Origin: Cryomorphaceae bacterium BACL7 MAG-120322-bin74
GTDB lineage: Bacteria; Bacteroidota; Bacteroidia; Flavobacteriales; Schleiferiaceae
Assembly (NCBI GenBank): GCA_001438205.1
Contig: LICG01000012.1
Span: 1 to 49,392, forward strand
Direction of reading: 5' to 3'
Length of the DNA stretch: 49,392 nt
Shown here piece by piece: positions 1,687-10,876 of the stretch. The position numbers and the translations under genes are program-made. Each line of letters begins with the position of its first letter. The first letter of the stretch is position 1. The notes under the pieces were generated by a model. That model made no database searches. It saw only the letters and a program-made list of their open reading frames with translations, and was not told the origin of the DNA.

Positions 1687-1788
1687 CGGACTTCGTCCGG
1701 AGATTGTGACAAAATGTCAGTAAATGATTTTTGCCGGATGTATAATAATGTGGCCTTTACTTTGTGCGCTCAAACCCAATCCTTTCTC

Positions 1789-4146
1789 ATGGCAAAAAAT
1801 CTAGTTATCGTCGAATCACCCGCCAAAGCGAAAACCATTGAGAAGTTTTTGGGCCCGGATTTTAAAGTGGAATCCAGTTTTGGCCACATTCGCGATTTGC
1901 CCGCCCGAGACCTTGGGGTAGATGTTGCCCATGATTTCGCGCCTAACTACATGGTGAGCGCCGACAAGAAAGATGTCGTTAAAAAATTAAAGAAGCTCGC
2001 CAAAGAATCAGACACGGTATGGCTCGCTTCCGATGAGGACCGTGAAGGAGAAGCTATTGCATGGCATTTGGCGGAAGCGCTCGAACTAGACGCGCTAAAG
2101 ACCAACCGAATTGTTTTTCATGAAATCACCAAAACGGCTATCCTGAAAGCTATTGATACGCCGCGTCGCATTGACATGGATCTTGTGAATGCGCAACAAG
2201 CACGGCGAGTTTTAGACCGCATTGTTGGATTTGAACTCTCCCCGGTCCTTTGGAGAAAAGTGAAACGTGGTTTGAGTGCAGGCCGTGTGCAATCGGTTGC
2301 CGTTCGCCTTATTGTAGAGCGTGAACGCGAGATCCAAGCTTTCCAGTCTGAAAGCGATTTTCGCATTAATGCACAGTTTACAAACCCAGAAGGTCAATCA
2401 TTTGGCGCAGAAATGCCCCAGGGCATTGTAGCGCAAGCTGAAATTGAACATGCCCTTGCTAGTTTAGCGGAGGGTGGTTTTTATGTCGCAGAACTGGAGA
2501 AGAAAGCCGCAACGCGGAAGCCTACAGCTCCCTTTACCACCTCTACCCTGCAACAAGAAGCTTCACGAAAGTTGGGATTTTCGGTCAACCGGACGATGTC
2601 CTTGGCACAAGGACTCTACGAAAACGGATTTATCACGTACATGCGTACTGACTCTGTCAATTTGAGCGAAGAAGCATTGTCATCTGCAGCGGATAGCATC
2701 ACCGCACAATACGGCGCACAGTATGTGCAACTCCGCAAATTCAACACCAAATCAAAAGGAGCGCAGGAGGCACATGAAGCCATTCGACCTACCAACTTGA
2801 TGTTGCAAACGGCAGGAATGGACCCTGGGCAAAAACGCCTCTATGATTTGATCTGGAAGCGCACCATGGCTTCTCAAATGGCCGATGCAAAACTGGAGCG
2901 GACCACGGCGCAACTAGAAAATAAAGCAGGACTCCGCTTTGTTGCTAAAGGGGAAATGATCGCATTTGATGGTTTCTTAAAAGTGTACCGTGAAGGCGTA
3001 GACGAGGAAGAAGAGGATGCAGGACTGTTGCCCACCTTGGCAAAAGGCGATGCCGTTAACCTGGTTAGAACACAAGCGCACCAGCGTTTTACGCGTCCCC
3101 CAGGTCGCTTTACAGAAGCCACCTTGGTTAAAGCCTTAGAAGAACTTGGCATCGGCCGTCCTTCAACCTATGCGCCTACCATTACCACAGTGCAAAACCG
3201 TGGCTATGTTCAGAAAGGCATCAATGAAGGCGTAGAACGCCATTTTGCGGTGGGCACCTTTACCTCTGGCGCATGGAATTGGGAAAACAAGACGGAAAAA
3301 ACAGGCTCAGACAAAGGACGCCTCGTCCCCACGGACATGGGGAACGTGGTCACGGACTTTTTGAATGAGCACTTTAAAACCGTCATGGACTACCAATTCA
3401 CCGCAAAGATGGAATCTGACTTTGACCTTGTGGCCGATGGGAAGGTATCCTGGACAGAGGTTTTGAATGATTTCTACACTGGATTTAATGGATTGATCGA
3501 AAAGTCAGCGGATGCTGACCGTGCCAGTGGCCAAAGACTCTTGGGCCATGACCCCAAATCAGGTAAGCCTGTCTATGCACGTATTGCGCGTTTCGGGCCA
3601 GTGGTTCAGCTTGGCGAAACAACGGATGAAGAAAAACCGCGTTTTGCGAGTATTCCTGAAGGACAATCCATGGAGACGATCACGATGGAAGACGCCCTTC
3701 CGCTCTTAAGCCTTCCACGCACGTTGGGCACTTATGAGGGCCAACCACTGAAAGCCAGCATTGGCAAGTTTGGTCCCTACGTGCAAGTTGGCCGGACCTT
3801 TGTGAGCCTCCCGGAAGATCTGACGCCATTCAGCGTAACCGAAGCACAAGCCATCGCCTTGATTCAAGCCAAAGCAGCAGAAACTGCCGCTTCGCAATTA
3901 GCCGTTTTTGAGGGGCCTGAAGGCGGTATCGTCGTCACCCAAGGCCGTTATGGTCCCTATATGAAGTACAATGGGGCGAATTACCCTATTCCAAAAACAA
4001 CCGAAGCAAGTAGCCTCACTGCAGAAAGTGCCTTGGCATTCATTCTTGCAGCCGGTGATAGAAAACCAGCGCGTGGTCGCAAAGGCACATCAGCAAAAAA
4101 AACAACCGCAAAGAAGCCCACAGCCAAAAGGGCTAAAAAATCCTAA
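1789..4146 (+). CDS. topA: DNA topoisomerase I (type IA)
   Basis: Relaxes negative supercoils by transient cleavage of one strand. The start is set at the ATG at 1789, because the family N-terminus MAKNLVIVESPAKAK begins there; an in-frame ATG 75 bases upstream would add a tail with no family similarity. The 785-residue protein has the Toprim domain with E9 and the DED acidic triad (D82, D84, E86 region, SDEDREGEA), followed by the type IA core with catalytic Y284 in FITYMRTDS. The C-terminal part carries topoisomerase repeats with GPYVQVG and GRYGPYMKYNG blocks rather than zinc fingers. It ends in a lysine/alanine-rich basic tail that probably binds DNA. The arginase-fold gene follows after three bases, so they form an operon. 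No clear promoter box is seen upstream. Confidence 0.97.
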   Translation: MAKNLVIVESPAKAKTIEKFLGPDFKVESSFGHIRDLPARDLGVDVAHDFAPNYMVSADKKDVVKKLKKLAKESDTVWLASDEDREGEAIAWHLAEALELDALKTNRIVFHEITKTAILKAIDTPRRIDMDLVNAQQARRVLDRIVGFELSPVLWRKVKRGLSAGRVQSVAVRLIVEREREIQAFQSESDFRINAQFTNPEGQSFGAEMPQGIVAQAEIEHALASLAEGGFYVAELEKKAATRKPTAPFTTSTLQQEASRKLGFSVNRTMSLAQGLYENGFITYMRTDSVNLSEEALSSAADSITAQYGAQYVQLRKFNTKSKGAQEAHEAIRPTNLMLQTAGMDPGQKRLYDLIWKRTMASQMADAKLERTTAQLENKAGLRFVAKGEMIAFDGFLKVYREGVDEEEEDAGLLPTLAKGDAVNLVRTQAHQRFTRPPGRFTEATLVKALEELGIGRPSTYAPTITTVQNRGYVQKGINEGVERHFAVGTFTSGAWNWENKTEKTGSDKGRLVPTDMGNVVTDFLNEHFKTVMDYQFTAKMESDFDLVADGKVSWTEVLNDFYTGFNGLIEKSADADRASGQRLLGHDPKSGKPVYARIARFGPVVQLGETTDEEKPRFASIPEGQSMETITMEDALPLLSLPRTLGTYEGQPLKASIGKFGPYVQVGRTFVSLPEDLTPFSVTEAQAIALIQAKAAETAASQLAVFEGPEGGIVVTQGRYGPYMKYNGANYPIPKTTEASSLTAESALAFILAAGDRKPARGRKGTSAKKTTAKKPTAKRAKKS

Positions 4147-4149
4147 ACC

Positions 4150-5304
4150 ATGTGGGAAGATTGCATTCAACCCATTCCGCAAGCTTGGGTTGACGCGTCC
4201 CCAGCCGGGAGCCTAGGCCATCAGCTGGTCGTGCACACGGAAGCCCATGGCTTTCCAGACCTGCGAAATGTGCGCATCGCTATTTTAGGCGTCCCTGAAG
4301 ACCGTGGGAGCGTGGACCAGCGAGGAGCGCGGGATGGTAGTCGCGCCATTCGGAAAGAACTTTATTCTCTCTTCCCAGGTTCGTGGGATTTTCAAATTGC
4401 GGACATCGGGGATATCGTTCCTGGAAGAGATGCGATTGACAGTATGGCCGCAATGGAAGCGTTGTGTGCGGAAATGCTAAAATGCCATTGCATCCCACTT
4501 GTTTTGGGTGGAAGTTCTGACTTAGGCCTTGCTTTATACAGAGCCTATAGCCATCTAGAAATGACGGTGAATGCAGCCATCCTGCACAGTCGTATAGCTC
4601 TTGGACAGGATAGCGAACCTCTCCATGATAAGAATGTGCTTAGCCACATTCTGACGGCTAAACCCTATTGCCTGTATAACCTTGCCCACATTGGGCACCA
4701 AGCGTACTACGTTGCCCCCGAAGTCTTAGACCTTTTTGAACGAATGCATTTTTATGCCCATCGATTAGGTGAAGTACGCGGCAAGGTGCAAGAAATTGAA
4801 CCTTTCCTGCGCGACGCGGACTTTTTATTGGTCAATAATCACGTGGTTCGGATGGCGGATGCCCCGGGGCAATCACACCCCTCCCCGAATGGAATGACCG
4901 CAGAAGAACTTTGCGCAGCCATGCGCTACGCCGGTATGAGTGATAAACTCACCGCAGTAGGTTATTTTGATTACAACCCACTTTTGGATCCCACTGGGCA
5001 AAATGCGCAACTCATTGCCCAAGCTCTTTGGTATTTTATGGAAGGCGTGCAATGGCGCAAAGGCGACTACCCTCTTCGGCCTAAGTCCGACTATACAAGA
5101 TTCACCGTCTTATTGGAAGAACCTGCCCAAGAGCTCGTTTTTTTTAAGTCACCATTCAGTGGTCGTTGGTGGATGGAAGTTCCCGCACATCCAGGTCAAG
5201 ATGCACGTCATCATCTGATGCCCTGCTCTTTAGGTGATTATGAAGCGGCACAACGCGGCGAAATTCCTGACCGCTGGTGGAAGGCTGTGCACAAAGCACA
5301 CTAG
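4150..5304 (+). CDS. Arginase/formimidoylglutamase-fold protein with lost metal-binding residues
   Basis: 384 aa with the overall pattern of the ureohydrolase (arginase, agmatinase, formimidoylglutamase) family. A C-terminal stretch corresponds to the family's DAPG, PNGMTAEE and NPLLDPTGQNAQL blocks. The dinuclear manganese ligands are not conserved, however. The GGDH motif is GGSSD (120-124), DAHxD has become LHSRI around H146, and SxDxDxxD has become LVNNHVVR around 229-234. It should therefore not be an active ureohydrolase and is better viewed as a pseudoenzyme with a structural or binding role. It directly follows topA and precedes porP and gldK, which suggests, without proof, a link to gliding/type IX secretion. 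Automated pipelines would probably label it formimidoylglutamase, which I consider misleading. Confidence 0.75.
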   Translation: MWEDCIQPIPQAWVDASPAGSLGHQLVVHTEAHGFPDLRNVRIAILGVPEDRGSVDQRGARDGSRAIRKELYSLFPGSWDFQIADIGDIVPGRDAIDSMAAMEALCAEMLKCHCIPLVLGGSSDLGLALYRAYSHLEMTVNAAILHSRIALGQDSEPLHDKNVLSHILTAKPYCLYNLAHIGHQAYYVAPEVLDLFERMHFYAHRLGEVRGKVQEIEPFLRDADFLLVNNHVVRMADAPGQSHPSPNGMTAEELCAAMRYAGMSDKLTAVGYFDYNPLLDPTGQNAQLIAQALWYFMEGVQWRKGDYPLRPKSDYTRFTVLLEEPAQELVFFKSPFSGRWWMEVPAHPGQDARHHLMPCSLGDYEAAQRGEIPDRWWKAVHKAH

Positions 5305-5370: not shown

Positions 5371-6315
5371 ATGATTTTACGTAATACTCTTACCGCCACG
5401 ATTCTCATTGGTTTTTCCAGTGTGGCTTTTGCACAGCAGGACGTTCAGTTTACCCAATACTATCACAACCAGATTGGCTTTAATCCAGGTGTTGCCGGGA
5501 GCAGTGACGCCATTAATCTCAATGTTGGGCATCGTTCGCAGTGGGTTGGATTTGACAATGCCCCAACGACACAAAACATCAATGCAGATATTCCACTGAG
5601 TATCCTCCATGGAGGTTTGGTATTGAATATTGTGAATGATCAGATCGGCTTTTTCCAAGATATTTCTGCCGCCATTGGGTATGCCTATCAGCTTGACTTA
5701 GGTCCAGGAACCTTAGGCATTGGGCTTTCCATTGATTTCAGGAATAAAAATGTGAAGACGGCGCAATGGATCTATCCTGATGGAACCTCTGGCTCCAATG
5801 ATCCTAGCATTCTTCGCCCGAATACCTCTGCCATGACGCCGGAACTTAATTTCGGGACTTATTACGCTACGGATACATGGTATGCCGGGCTTTCAACCAC
5901 GCGTTTGTTGCAAAGCGAAGCCAACTTTGGCGGGTCAGCTCGGTATAAAAGCAAGTTGCATTATTACCTAACTGGGGGCTATCATATTCCTTTAGAGGAC
6001 TATCAATTGGTTTTAACCCCAAGTTTTTTAGTAAAGTCAGATGTAAATTCAAACCTCTCTTTGGACCTGAATGTCAATGTTCTTTTCCAAGATAAAATCT
6101 ATGGCGGACTAGGGTATAGAAACCAAGATGCTATTAGCTTAATGGCTGGCTACCAGGTGCTTCCGTCATTGCGCCTTGCCTATTCATATGACATCACCAC
6201 TTCCGTATTGAGTGGTTACAGTGGCGGTAGCCATGAGATTTTCCTGAACTATAGTTTCAATATTGAGATCCCCGAAAGGATACCAGGAAGCTATAGAAAC
6301 GTAAGATTTTTGTAA
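5371..6315 (+). CDS. PorP/SprF family type IX secretion membrane protein
   Basis: A 314-residue outer-membrane beta-barrel protein with a signal peptide cleaved near residue 21 (SSVAFAQQ). The mature start DVQFTQYYHNQIGFNPGVAG is close to the family hallmark, in which FTQY is followed by NPA or NPG. The rest alternates in short amphipathic strands (GHRSQW, LGIGLSIDFR, YYLTGGYHIP, RLAYSYDITTS), as in a barrel of about 14 strands. Family members (PorP in Porphyromonas, SprF in Flavobacterium) sit in the outer membrane and help type IX secretion or attachment of particular adhesins. It is 33 bases upstream of gldK and probably the first gene of the porP-gldKLMN operon. Whether it serves the core apparatus or one substrate cannot be read from sequence. 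Confidence 0.88.
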   Translation: MILRNTLTATILIGFSSVAFAQQDVQFTQYYHNQIGFNPGVAGSSDAINLNVGHRSQWVGFDNAPTTQNINADIPLSILHGGLVLNIVNDQIGFFQDISAAIGYAYQLDLGPGTLGIGLSIDFRNKNVKTAQWIYPDGTSGSNDPSILRPNTSAMTPELNFGTYYATDTWYAGLSTTRLLQSEANFGGSARYKSKLHYYLTGGYHIPLEDYQLVLTPSFLVKSDVNSNLSLDLNVNVLFQDKIYGGLGYRNQDAISLMAGYQVLPSLRLAYSYDITTSVLSGYSGGSHEIFLNYSFNIEIPERIPGSYRNVRFL

Positions 6316-6348: not shown

Positions 6349-7779
6349 ATGAAGAATTTCAATATCTTCTTCCGGATGGCCTCCTTGGCTGCCGTGGCCA
6401 TTTTGGCGGCGTGTTCTGGTTCGGACCACGGCGAACTCGTCGGCGTCCAAAACCGCCCGGAATTTTACCCATCTGACCCTTATGGAATGGTCTACATTCC
6501 TCAAGGATCATTTAATATGGGTAACTCTGACATTGACGTGCCATCTACATTGACGGCTCCTACAAAAACAGTGAGTGTTTCTTCTTTCTATATGGACGAG
6601 ACAGAAATCACCAACAATGAGTACCGTCAATTTGTCCAATGGGTTCGTGATTCTATCCTTCGCTACCGCCTTGCAGAAGGCTTGGTTGAGGACTTTGAGT
6701 ATATCAGTTATGCCGATATGCAAAATCCCACCTACTTTGAAGAGTATGTTGGCCTTGAGTACCCAGACTCGATGCAAACGCATCTGGATTGGAGTAGAAA
6801 GTTGGTTTGGGACACCCACCGCTTCCCTTCTGCTGAGTATACCGAGGTCATTGAATCCATGTACATAGCTCCAGAAGAGCGCTACCTCGGTGGCCGCATG
6901 CTGGATGCGCGTCAAATGAATTATCTCTACTTCTGGATTAATACGCAAAAGGCGTCCAAGAAGTCGAACCGCGTGCAGTACGATTTTAACGATGCAGATG
7001 GAGATGGTCGTACATTCTCTTATAAAGACTACATCAAAGATGGAATGGCTGTTTCAGACCGCTCTAGCTTCTTTGAAAGCGAAACCGTCAACATCTATCC
7101 TGACACATTGGTTTGGTTGGCTGACTTCACCTACTCTTTTAACGAGCAAATGCACGACAATTATTTCTGGCATCCTGCCTATGACAACTATCCTGTTGTG
7201 GGTATTAACTGGAAGCAAGCGATGGCATTCTGTAACTGGCGGACGCGTTACCGCAATGAATACTTGAAAGACAACCGCGACTTCCAAGAGAATGAATTCC
7301 GCCTTCCAACCGAATCTGAGTGGGAATATGCTGCACGTGGTGGTTTTGAATTGACTACTTACCCATGGGGTGGCCCGTATACGACCAATAGTCAAGGTTG
7401 CTTCTTGGCTAACTTCAAGCCTTCACGTGGTAACCTAACAGCTGATGGCGGCTTTCACCCTGTAAAAGTTACCTCCTATGAGCCAAATGGCTATGGTTTG
7501 TACTGCATGGCTGGAAACGTAGCAGAATGGACAAGTACAGCATGGGATGAAGCGAGTTACTATTATGTGGCAGATTTTAACCCTGACTTTAAATACAATG
7601 CCGCTGACTCCGATCCGGAAACCTTAAAGCGAAAAGTGATCCGTGGCGGATCTTGGAAAGATATTGCTTCCTACATGCAAGTAGGAGCGCGTGATTATGA
7701 ATATCAAGACACGAATAAATCCTATATCGGTTTCCGTACCGTACAGAGTTTCTTAGGTCGTGATGCTCGTGACTTTTAA
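6349..7779 (+). CDS. gldK: Type IX secretion/gliding lipoprotein GldK
   Basis: An outer-membrane lipoprotein that with GldN forms the periplasmic ring of the type IX secretion system. The 476-residue protein has a lipoprotein signal with lipobox LAAC, lipidated at C22, and acidic residues soon after the cysteine. The body is an FGE-sulfatase/C-type-lectin-like domain. Visible family blocks include YGMVYIPQGSFNMG, DETEITNNEYRQF, RLPTESEWEYAARGG, MAGNVAEWT and RGGSWKD, ending with the YIGFRTV block. The central insert around residues 120-260 is typical of GldK and distinguishes it from ordinary sulfatase-modifying enzymes. It precedes gldL by 39 bases in the conserved order K-L-M-N. Confidence 0.95.
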   Translation: MKNFNIFFRMASLAAVAILAACSGSDHGELVGVQNRPEFYPSDPYGMVYIPQGSFNMGNSDIDVPSTLTAPTKTVSVSSFYMDETEITNNEYRQFVQWVRDSILRYRLAEGLVEDFEYISYADMQNPTYFEEYVGLEYPDSMQTHLDWSRKLVWDTHRFPSAEYTEVIESMYIAPEERYLGGRMLDARQMNYLYFWINTQKASKKSNRVQYDFNDADGDGRTFSYKDYIKDGMAVSDRSSFFESETVNIYPDTLVWLADFTYSFNEQMHDNYFWHPAYDNYPVVGINWKQAMAFCNWRTRYRNEYLKDNRDFQENEFRLPTESEWEYAARGGFELTTYPWGGPYTTNSQGCFLANFKPSRGNLTADGGFHPVKVTSYEPNGYGLYCMAGNVAEWTSTAWDEASYYYVADFNPDFKYNAADSDPETLKRKVIRGGSWKDIASYMQVGARDYEYQDTNKSYIGFRTVQSFLGRDARDF

Positions 7780-7818: not shown

Positions 7819-8475
7819 ATGGCTCTAATTGACGTAAACGGCAAACGCTTTAAGGACTTCATGACCAAACTTTATGGTTTGGGTGCGGCAGTTGTTATTA
7901 TGGGTGCACTTTTTAAGATTATTCACCTTCCTTATGCAGACCTCATGCTGATCATCGGTTTGACTACTGAGGCTGTCATCTTCGCTATTTCTGCTTTTGA
8001 AGCAACACCTAAAGATTATGATTGGGGTTTGGTTTATCCGGAATTTGAAAATGGCGAATCTTCAGGCAAAGGTGGCCGAAAAGGCACCGTTACCCAAGAA
8101 ATGGACCGTATGATGGAGGAGGCCAAGATTGGTCCTGAATTATTGACCAGCCTAGGTGAGGGCATGCGCCGATTGAGCGATACTGCTGCATCATTAAATT
8201 CAGCTGTTGATGCTGCTGGCGCGACGTCCGCTTATTCAGATCAACTTAATTCAGCCGCTAAAAACATGGAAGCATTGAACGCTCTTTACGCTGTTCAACT
8301 CGAAAACACCACAAACCAAGTGGAGGTTCAAAATAGTGTCATGGAGAAACTTGGTTCTTCTATGGCTAGTTCAGAAGCCCTTTCAGAAGAAGTAACAAAA
8401 TTGACTTCCAATTTGGGTCAGCTCAATGGCGTATATGGAAACATGTTGGCGGCTATGGGCGGCAACCGCTCATAA
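7819..8475 (+). CDS. gldL: Type IX secretion motor protein GldL
   Basis: A 218-residue inner-membrane protein that with GldM forms the proton-driven rotary motor of type IX secretion and gliding. Two transmembrane helices lie at the N-terminus (about residues 18-36 and 40-60), joined by a short IIHLPYAD turn. Acidic residues E51 and E61 lie in or at the end of helix 2, in the region where family members keep the glutamates needed for proton coupling. The remainder is a cytoplasmic, Ala/Ser/Asn-rich helical domain with coiled-coil character. It lies between gldK and gldM with gaps of 39 and 53 bases. Confidence 0.94.
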   Translation: MALIDVNGKRFKDFMTKLYGLGAAVVIMGALFKIIHLPYADLMLIIGLTTEAVIFAISAFEATPKDYDWGLVYPEFENGESSGKGGRKGTVTQEMDRMMEEAKIGPELLTSLGEGMRRLSDTAASLNSAVDAAGATSAYSDQLNSAAKNMEALNALYAVQLENTTNQVEVQNSVMEKLGSSMASSEALSEEVTKLTSNLGQLNGVYGNMLAAMGGNRS

Positions 8476-8528: not shown

Positions 8529-10049
8529 ATGGCCTCAGGTAAACTGTCCCCCCGTCAGAAAATGATCAACATGATGTATTTGGTGTTGACCGCAATGCTT
8601 GCGCTCAACGTATCCAAAGACATCTTATTGGTTCTTCACAAATTGGACCAAGGCATGACGGCAACTGTGACCACAGTGGCTAAGGGTACGGAAAATGTTT
8701 ACCGTTCTTTTGAGGCGCAGCTTCAAGACAATCCCCGTGCAGCAGAACCTTGGGAGGTTGCTAAAGAGGTTCGGAGCCAAACAGATAAGGTTTTTGGTCT
8801 TCTCTCTAAAACCCGCAATGACTTGATTGACTTAACCGGCGGGATAGATGAAGAAGAAGATGGAAGATTAAATGGAGCAGATAACCGTGATATCCCGGAA
8901 AATTACTTGCTAAACGACAAGAGTATTGGGGGTCAAGGTGCCGCAAAAGATATCAAAGCCCAACTCATTGCTTACCGTGATTACCTATTAACCGTTTCTA
9001 GCGGTGATGAGAATTTGATAAATGAGCTCAATCAAGCCTTTGACTTTAAGGATGTCCAACAAGAAGGTAAGAAAATGACCTGGGAGACAGCCACTTTCTC
9101 AGAATTACCTTTAGCGGGTGTTATTCCCTTTATCACCGATCTTCAGTCCCGCGTTCGTCGGATGGAAGCAAATTCTATAGAGTACCTATATAGCAGCATT
9201 GACGCCGCTACCGTTAAGTTTGATGGTGTTCGTGCTATCGTCATGCCTATAAGCACCTATGTAACGCAAGGTGGCACGTATGAAGCTGACGTATTCTTAG
9301 CGGCATATAACTCTGGCAACAATCCCGTTTTTGAGGGCATTGTTCCTGCATCGATTGAAAACGGCGTAGGCAAACTGACCATTCCTGCAACCGGCATTGG
9401 AGAAAAGTCACTCAAAGGCTCTATGACGCTTCCTGGAAGCGAAACAGTGTATACGTATGATGTTGTTTACACCGTTGCACCTCCTATGGTGGTCATTTCT
9501 CCATCTAAAATGAATGTGTTGTACCGAAACGTTGACAACCCACTTGAAATCTCCGTCCCAGGTGTTGCGCCGAAGGATCTGATTGTCAGTGGCCCTGGCG
9601 TCAGCGGAAGCAATGGGAACTATTCGGCAGACGTGACCAAGATTTCGGGTAAAGAAGTGGTGATCAATGTCCGTGTAAAGGAATCTGACGGCAAAACGCG
9701 TAATGCAGGATCTAAGGAATTCCGTATTAAAGGACTTCCTCAAGCTGTTGGCTCAGTCTACAAGAAGTCTGAAGGCATCATGTCTTCTGGTCTACTTAGC
9801 AAAGCAACCATTGAAGCAGAATACCAAGATTTTCCCTTTGACTTAGCGTTGAAGGTCGTTGCATTTGAATTAAAGATGGACGGTCAACCGCCTATTCAGG
9901 TTCAAGGCAATACAATTCCTAGTACAGCACGTGAGTTAATCACGCGTCTGCGTCCAGGGAGTACGGTCAGTGTCCGTAAAATTGTCGCGACTACGCCAAA
10001 AGGCCAGCGCGTATCTAACGTAGGTATCATTTCCATTGACGTTCAGTAA
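8529..10049 (+). CDS. gldM: Type IX secretion motor shaft protein GldM
   Basis: A 506-residue inner-membrane protein whose dimeric periplasmic shaft links the GldL motor to the GldK/GldN ring. The N-terminus MASGKLSPRQKMINMMYLV is the family signature. A single transmembrane helix occupies about residues 12-30 and carries the conserved polar/charged residues that sit inside the GldL ring. A helical domain (about 35-220) follows, then several beta-rich domains; the VSGPGVSGSNG and IKGLPQAVGSV blocks belong to the distal ones. Its stop codon overlaps the gldN start by one base (TAATG), so the two are translationally coupled. Confidence 0.95.
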   Translation: MASGKLSPRQKMINMMYLVLTAMLALNVSKDILLVLHKLDQGMTATVTTVAKGTENVYRSFEAQLQDNPRAAEPWEVAKEVRSQTDKVFGLLSKTRNDLIDLTGGIDEEEDGRLNGADNRDIPENYLLNDKSIGGQGAAKDIKAQLIAYRDYLLTVSSGDENLINELNQAFDFKDVQQEGKKMTWETATFSELPLAGVIPFITDLQSRVRRMEANSIEYLYSSIDAATVKFDGVRAIVMPISTYVTQGGTYEADVFLAAYNSGNNPVFEGIVPASIENGVGKLTIPATGIGEKSLKGSMTLPGSETVYTYDVVYTVAPPMVVISPSKMNVLYRNVDNPLEISVPGVAPKDLIVSGPGVSGSNGNYSADVTKISGKEVVINVRVKESDGKTRNAGSKEFRIKGLPQAVGSVYKKSEGIMSSGLLSKATIEAEYQDFPFDLALKVVAFELKMDGQPPIQVQGNTIPSTARELITRLRPGSTVSVRKIVATTPKGQRVSNVGIISIDVQ

Positions 10050-10876
10050 TGATGAAAAAGTTCCTTAGCCTTTTCGCTTTTGTCCTTTCGGTAGCCGCTT
10101 TTGGGCAGGTTATTACGCCGGAAGACGATGGCCTTATCCCAAAGAGTGATTATCATCCTGCAAATGCACGTGTGGTCCCTTATCCTTTCCTTCGCCAAGA
10201 TGATATGATGTGGTCTACCCGTCATTGGGAGCGTATCCATGTACAAGAGAAACTCAACCACCCTTTGTACTATCCTGTAGTGCCCCTTCCAGATCGTAAA
10301 TCCATGTTTGACGTCCTTAAAGATGCCATCATGACCGAAGGAAGCATCCGTGAAGTATACCGTGATGATATATTCGAAATGTATCTCACCCCTCAGGAGG
10401 TGGCACAGATCCTTATTCGTGTAGATACATTACGTGATCCTGATGATCCCAGTGTCATTCTTGCCGTCGACTCTATTGAGCTAAAGGCGCCTAATGTGAT
10501 CGCTTGGGAAATCAAAACAGATTGGTATTTTGATAAGCAACGTGGAGAAATGACCAGCCGCATTATTGGACTTTCTCCTGTAGTGAAAGATCCACAGACC
10601 CAAGAGATTTATAATATTTTCTGGATTTGGTTCCCTGATGCACGTCAAGCATTATCCACGAATGTGGCCTATAATCCCGATAATAATAATCGACGTATGA
10701 CCTTCGATCAAATTCTTCAGAGTCGCTATTTTAACTCTGTAGTGTTCAAGGAAGACAACGTCTACGATCGACAGATCCAAGACTACAAGCAAAACCGCCC
10801 CATGGAACAGCTACTTGAGTCACGAAGGATCAGAGAAGAGCTCAGGGACTATGAAAACAACCTCTGGCAGTTCTAA
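10049..10876 (+). CDS. gldN: Type IX secretion ring protein GldN (PorN)
   Basis: A 275-residue periplasmic protein that pairs with GldK in the ring under the outer membrane. The signal peptide (two Met, two Lys, then a hydrophobic stretch ending AAFGQ) is cleaved around residue 20. Family blocks include WSTRHWERIHVQEKLN, the DDPS repeat in the middle, and WDWFFD/WEIKTDWYFDKQRGEM-type and NIFWIWFPDAR segments. Translation can start at either of two adjacent ATGs (10049 or 10052); the first overlaps the gldM stop. It is the last gene of the operon, followed by a strong intrinsic terminator. Confidence 0.94.
   Translation: MMKKFLSLFAFVLSVAAFGQVITPEDDGLIPKSDYHPANARVVPYPFLRQDDMMWSTRHWERIHVQEKLNHPLYYPVVPLPDRKSMFDVLKDAIMTEGSIREVYRDDIFEMYLTPQEVAQILIRVDTLRDPDDPSVILAVDSIELKAPNVIAWEIKTDWYFDKQRGEMTSRIIGLSPVVKDPQTQEIYNIFWIWFPDARQALSTNVAYNPDNNNRRMTFDQILQSRYFNSVVFKEDNVYDRQIQDYKQNRPMEQLLESRRIREELRDYENNLWQF

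Follow-up and report, generated by a model that had tools for sequence, protein, structure and literature searches.

A putative arginase-fold pseudoenzyme encoded beside type IX secretion genes across a bacterial class

Across most of a large bacterial class, an arginase-like protein that has no metal-binding residues is encoded adjacent to the genes of the secretion and gliding motor. In the window (the whole stretch of 49,392 nucleotides analyzed here), it is the product of an intact open reading frame of 384 amino acids at positions 4150 to 5304 of the forward strand. We propose that a ureohydrolase-superfamily protein, ancient in the class (which we take to be Bacteroidia), would have lost its binuclear metal center, and that the resulting cytosolic pseudoenzyme with a C-terminal domain of its own may have been retained for binding instead of catalysis, most likely as an accessory to the type IX secretion system (T9SS) and gliding machinery; we give this reading about an even chance of being right. 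The subfamily thus looks like an ancestral enzyme repurposed for a helper role without catalysis, and if its gene does encode a part or a regulator of the T9SS, it would make the motor's cytosolic side accessible to study. Family matches are likely to name the protein a formimidoylglutamase or arginase, yet it is without the metal site that these enzymes need, and because this site is absent, any prediction of metabolism that treats the protein as an enzyme would be in error throughout the class.

Family assignment and loss of the metal site

The Pfam Arginase profile (PF00491) matches residues 42 to 296 of the window protein (positions 4273 to 5037, forward strand) with an E-value of 8.2e-18 and a score of 65 bits (cut-off 22). 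The match runs across the whole domain and places the protein in the ureohydrolase superfamily, so that it probably adopts the ureohydrolase fold; a whole-protein AlphaFold2 model built from seven close sequences (the window and six loci) was unusable at a pLDDT of 45.9. The best curated family match is HutG (TIGR01227; solved structures 3m1r and 1xfk), and 3m1r is also the best PDB profile match (E 3.4e-17, profile A1). However, the score of 81.3 bits is far below the curated HutG cut-off of 229.15 bits and leaves the window protein outside this family, from which it also differs by the loss of all six metal ligands, by an extra C-terminal domain, and by its location outside a hut operon. No segment of the protein is hydrophobic enough for a signal peptide or membrane helix in a scan of its sequence (maximum 19-residue mean of 1.31), and we therefore predict that it is cytosolic. 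The genome of the window encodes three further members of the arginase family. A HutG-like paralogue in the same genome (L003 1414-2370, G000:C19), found between genes that by eye resemble hutI and ftcD, is itself atypical: It keeps GGGH and DPHPD, carries Glu and Cys at the positions of the final two Asp ligands, and reaches 70 bits with the HutG model. A search of plasmids returned three distant family members (22.9% to 23.4% identity), none of which covers 80% of the query.

Alignment with a canonical agmatinase and a canonical arginase of the same genome shows that the window protein keeps 0 of the 6 ligands of the metal center. The GGDH motif is replaced by GGSS (residues 120 to 123, positions 4507 to 4518; followed by D), DAHxD by HSRIA (residues 146 to 150, positions 4585 to 4599), and SxDxDxxD by LVNNHVVR (residues 227 to 234, positions 4828 to 4851), all on the forward strand, while the DAPG and NPLLDPTGQ blocks are retained. 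Both retained blocks and, with LHSRI given in place of DAHxD, these replacements had been described in the initial annotation, and the alignment bears out the loss of the motifs. The protein hence does not have the six ligands found in active ureohydrolases such as arginase, agmatinase, and HutG, and it probably has no ureohydrolase activity.

The same is seen throughout the subfamily. Taking the best frame per locus at 193 loci (the duplicate locus of the window, L004, was omitted), we scored the ligands of 177 distinct orthologues, none of which has all six. Eighteen orthologues keep no ligand, 22 keep one, 11 keep two, 107 keep three, and 19 keep the maximum of four, with which metal binding might still be possible. 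Usually both His and one Asp are lost: The position of H101 is mostly Gln (109 orthologues, with His in 17), that of H126 is Arg or Lys in 95 and His in 6, and that of D234 is most frequently Ser (75) and Asp in 6, whereas D124 (145/177), D128 (127/177), and D232 (140/177) are commonly kept. The window protein has thus degenerated further than most of its orthologues, but the degeneracy of the site is no local accident since all 177 scored orthologues are affected. From these sequences, we judge that the subfamily is a conserved pseudoenzyme of the ureohydrolase superfamily; homologues with intact ligands, which would have spoken against the same proposal in the initial annotation, did not turn up among the 177. 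Because the ligands are lost, a non-enzymatic binding role would be the natural reading. One orthologue (L026, G028:C126) contains an in-frame TAA, so that either the gene is broken or the assembly is faulty there, and was omitted from the first ligand alignment.

Gene neighborhood

In the window, the arginase-fold gene starts 3 bp after the end of topA (positions 1714 to 4146, named from its sequence without a family search) and is followed on the same, forward strand by porP/sprF (5371 to 6315; TIGR03519, 243 bits), gldK (6349 to 7779; TIGR03525, 584 bits), gldL (7819 to 8475; TIGR03513, 184 bits), gldM (8529 to 10049; TIGR03517, 335 bits), and gldN (10049 to 10876; TIGR03523, 208 bits). All five downstream matches exceed their curated cut-offs, which confirms the earlier placement of the gene directly before porP and gldK, and the complete order is topA, arginase-fold gene, porP, gldK, gldL, gldM, gldN.

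We compared this order at 100 loci from 100 genomes, comprising 20 relatives and 80 loci picked across families (hence not a random sample), and scored topA as a neighbor if its homologue lay on the same strand no more than 500 bp upstream, and gldK if it lay within 3 kb downstream. The subfamily gene has topA as a neighbor at 76 of the 100 loci, gldK at 68, and both at 64, with a median gap of 4 bp between topA and the gene. Seven loci that extend far enough downstream carry topA but no gldK, 4 have gldK without topA, and 19 have neither; the remaining 6 have too little downstream sequence to score gldK (5 with topA, 1 without). The link to gldK, which the initial annotation had mentioned for other Flavobacteriia, is therefore real and class-wide. 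At four further loci (L139, L154, L155, and L156), the gene is found at a second T9SS locus beside murF and gldJ and without topA. Clustering places a porU homologue at all four of them and porP at L139, L154, and L155; the curated PorU model is exceeded at L155 and L156 and that of MurF at L155 and L139, while the GldJ scores at L155 and L139 (411 and 435 bits) are slightly below the cut-off of 458 but above those for GldK. Taken with the 68 loci carrying gldK, these four show that the gene is encoded together with T9SS genes in two separate settings.

At six loci elsewhere, the gene shares a stretch with an epimerase-like gene, and at three loci of family f6 it adjoins a cluster that resembles surface-polysaccharide genes (named by eye from sequence). 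At L135, L144, L145, L149, L190, and L191, it is unlinked from topA and gldK and often lies near an epimerase-like gene, of which the copy at L135 matches HpnA below the HpnA cut-off.

The main alternative to a role in T9SS starts from the upstream neighbor. The protein may be a general housekeeping pseudoenzyme, perhaps tied to topA, with its place before gldKLMN being a retained ancestral order without any T9SS function. It fits this view that topA is the commoner neighbor (76 versus 68 of 100 loci) and that the seven loci with topA and no gldK exist. Conversely, the gene stays with gldK at four loci without topA and is at the second T9SS locus, again without topA, at four more, and topA is universal, whereas the subfamily is unseen outside the GldN-bearing class among the matches listed (see below). 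With the evidence on gene loss and evolutionary rates described in the next sections also considered, we regard this alternative as rather unlikely, though a serious contender.

Distribution of the subfamily and of the T9SS

Members of the subfamily were recognized by matches that extend into the C-terminal domain. Among 296 genomes sampled across the phylum, GldN is found in 71, all of them from the class of the window; 69 genomes have both GldN and the subfamily, 2 have GldN only, none has the subfamily only, and 225 have neither, so that no member was seen outside the GldN-bearing class among the matches listed. In a sample of 296 genomes from this class, the corresponding numbers are 276 with both, 13 with GldN only, 3 with the subfamily only, and 4 with neither, and in 149 genomes of the order of G285 they are 103, 36, 1, and 9. 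The subfamily is thus missing from 13 of 289 GldN-positive genomes in the class sample and from 36 of 139 in this order. It follows that the T9SS does not require the gene everywhere; the gene is dispensable to the T9SS in many lineages.

We checked SprA and GldM in 23 genomes. Of the four genomes with the subfamily but without GldN, two with broken assemblies (G683 and G558) encode SprA together with all or part of GldM and were counted as T9SS-positive. In G663 (99% complete, nine contigs), SprA was found and GldM and GldN were not. All three markers (SprA, GldM, and GldN) are absent from ten of the checked genomes, of which eight are also without the subfamily (G285, G293, G451, G537, G606, G676, G682, and G693) and two keep it (G525 and G395). 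The gene of G525 is intact in a genome that is 99% complete, and none of the three markers was found there, while its congener G061 has GldM and GldN, with SprA not found. A T9SS loss in G395 is doubtful given a completeness of 95% and the presence of SprA in five of its congeners. In at least one lineage, the gene hence seems able to persist without the T9SS. A degenerate subfamily common in genomes without a T9SS would have counted against the initial annotation, and this is not observed: Only 2 of 279 subfamily-positive genomes of the class lack all three markers. In the one-contig genome of G061, where SprA was not found, GldL, GldM, GldN, and GldK-like genes are rearranged on two strands (L192, G061:C1:3468000-3480000).

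The association of the gene with the T9SS gives Fisher p values of 2e-4 in the class and 9e-5 in the order of G285, which ignore relatedness and are not proof. The genomes negative for both partly belong to families (f25 and f119) that lost the gene yet kept the T9SS, so that the association is not phylogenetically independent, and co-occurrence with the T9SS does not settle the function of the subfamily. The earlier suggestion of a binding or scaffold job for type IX secretion is plausible from the order of the genes and their distribution: The gene is linked to T9SS genes at two separate loci and confined to the GldN-bearing class, which speaks for such a job, and against it are the even more constant neighbor topA, the GldN-positive genomes without the gene, and the retention of the gene in G525 (and maybe in G395) without the markers. 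As to whether its presence tracks the T9SS across genomes, the subfamily shares its class with GldN, but it is lost from many T9SS genomes and kept in G525. The retention in G525 also fits a housekeeping function.

Rate covariation and a possible link to the motor

In mirror-tree distance matrices of 50 loci, the pseudoenzyme had its highest partial correlation (0.53) with GldL. When branch lengths were compared on a fixed 65-locus tree, the covariation with gldL fell to a rho of 0.11 (p 0.22), and it is 0.09 if only the portion of GldL that follows the membrane segment is used. We therefore rejected the distance signal for GldL as clade structure. Branch by branch, the pseudoenzyme covaries most strongly with topA (rho 0.43, compared to 0.13 for gldK, 0.11 for gldL, and 0.15 for gldM), as a topA-tied housekeeping protein might. 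However, topA and gldM also covary (0.49), so that the test does not discriminate and is no evidence for a role with topA.

Within the reading of the protein as a T9SS accessory, the subfamily could be an unnamed cytosolic T9SS or gliding factor of the whole class, which would attach to the GldLM motor from the cytosolic side or direct how the motor is assembled, and which was overlooked because its family match makes it resemble a formimidoylglutamase or arginase; we advance this only tentatively, as somewhat more likely to be wrong than right. Part of GldL, one of the two proteins in the GldLM motor, lies in the cytosol, so that binding to it is conceivable, and PMC10951265 describes such binding for PorX, a cytosolic T9SS response regulator. 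PorX thus offers a model for a cytosolic protein that acts on the motor, but it is unrelated to the present protein. By this analogy, the pseudoenzyme might bind the cytosolic part of GldL and aid the assembly or regulation of the GldLM motor, which we consider unlikely.

C-terminal domain and conserved residues

Beyond approximately residue 303, the members in an alignment of 31 sequences run on into a conserved domain of approximately 75 residues, which in the window protein comprises residues 304 to 384 (positions 5059 to 5301, forward strand). This domain is specific to the subfamily; the matches of solved family members end at position 306 of the 388-position profile. A model of the domain alone, at a pLDDT of 80, shows four strands together with two helices. 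Sequence searches of Pfam and the PDB with this domain found no convincing match, and neither did Foldseek (best E 0.43) nor a second structure comparison (best Z 3.1) with its model; this absence of a structural match implies neither a new fold nor that there is none. At L154, L155, and L156 (family f19), the frames are shorter (288 to 337 residues) and match the profile only from position 177-205 to 383-385, i.e., its C-terminal half, which suggests that the function resides there and in the extra domain.

Across the 177 orthologues, Q184, G248, and W294 are conserved at approximately 1.00, E217, R221, and F331 at 0.99, and W340, W341, C359, and Y364 at 0.98, so that all of F331, W340, W341, C359, and Y364 in the C-terminal domain are at least 98% conserved. 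Given these near-invariant residues, the protein is under selection for something else and not in decay. Near-invariant polar residues would also suit an enzyme whose active site has been built anew, e.g., formed by the conserved Q184, R205, E217, R221, C255, and C359, so that the protein would be no pseudoenzyme at all. Yet members of the subfamily do not conserve the former catalytic pocket, and the match of the shortened f19 proteins spans only the C-terminal half; we find a new active site improbable and keep to the pseudoenzyme reading.

Comparison with known pseudoenzymes

We found no description of the subfamily, its C-terminal domain, or a class-wide link to T9SS genes in the open-access literature, and look-ups of the words "arginase" and "formimi" found neither in PMC12758843, PMC10994853, PMC10936215, and PMC8986121. 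Arginase-fold pseudoenzymes as such are already known from TbARG and MetCb. TbARG, an arginase-like protein of Trypanosoma brucei, has an arginase fold without a metal cluster; it resembles the window protein in this respect and differs in being eukaryotic and sharing no common context. MetCb, the subunit B of metformin hydrolase (8ryi and 8snf), is an arginase-family pseudoenzyme like the window protein that, according to PMC11271267, lost five of the six ligands and is kept as a binding partner in MetCaCb.

Following this precedent, the window protein could belong to a mixed ureohydrolase as the subunit without catalysis, paired with an active member of the arginase family whose gene lies elsewhere, and MetCb is its best single-sequence PDB match (E 1.2e-7) in a genome with three other family members, but we deem this highly improbable: The gene of the active partner adjoins that of MetCb, whereas the present protein occurs in genomes apparently without another family member. 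Specifically, 15 of the 279 subfamily-positive genomes of the class have a single PF00491 match with an E-value in the range of the subfamily rather than of the stronger family members, so that no active partner would be needed there, and an obligate MetCb-like partner was rejected as a general rule. The apparent sole PF00491 protein is the subfamily member in G154, G193, G269, G316, G385, G440, G457, G522, G525, G527, G539, G541, G550, G552, and G594, and a cross-check of two of these (G316 and G525) gave 87 and 80 bits for their subfamily members, consistent with a single match.
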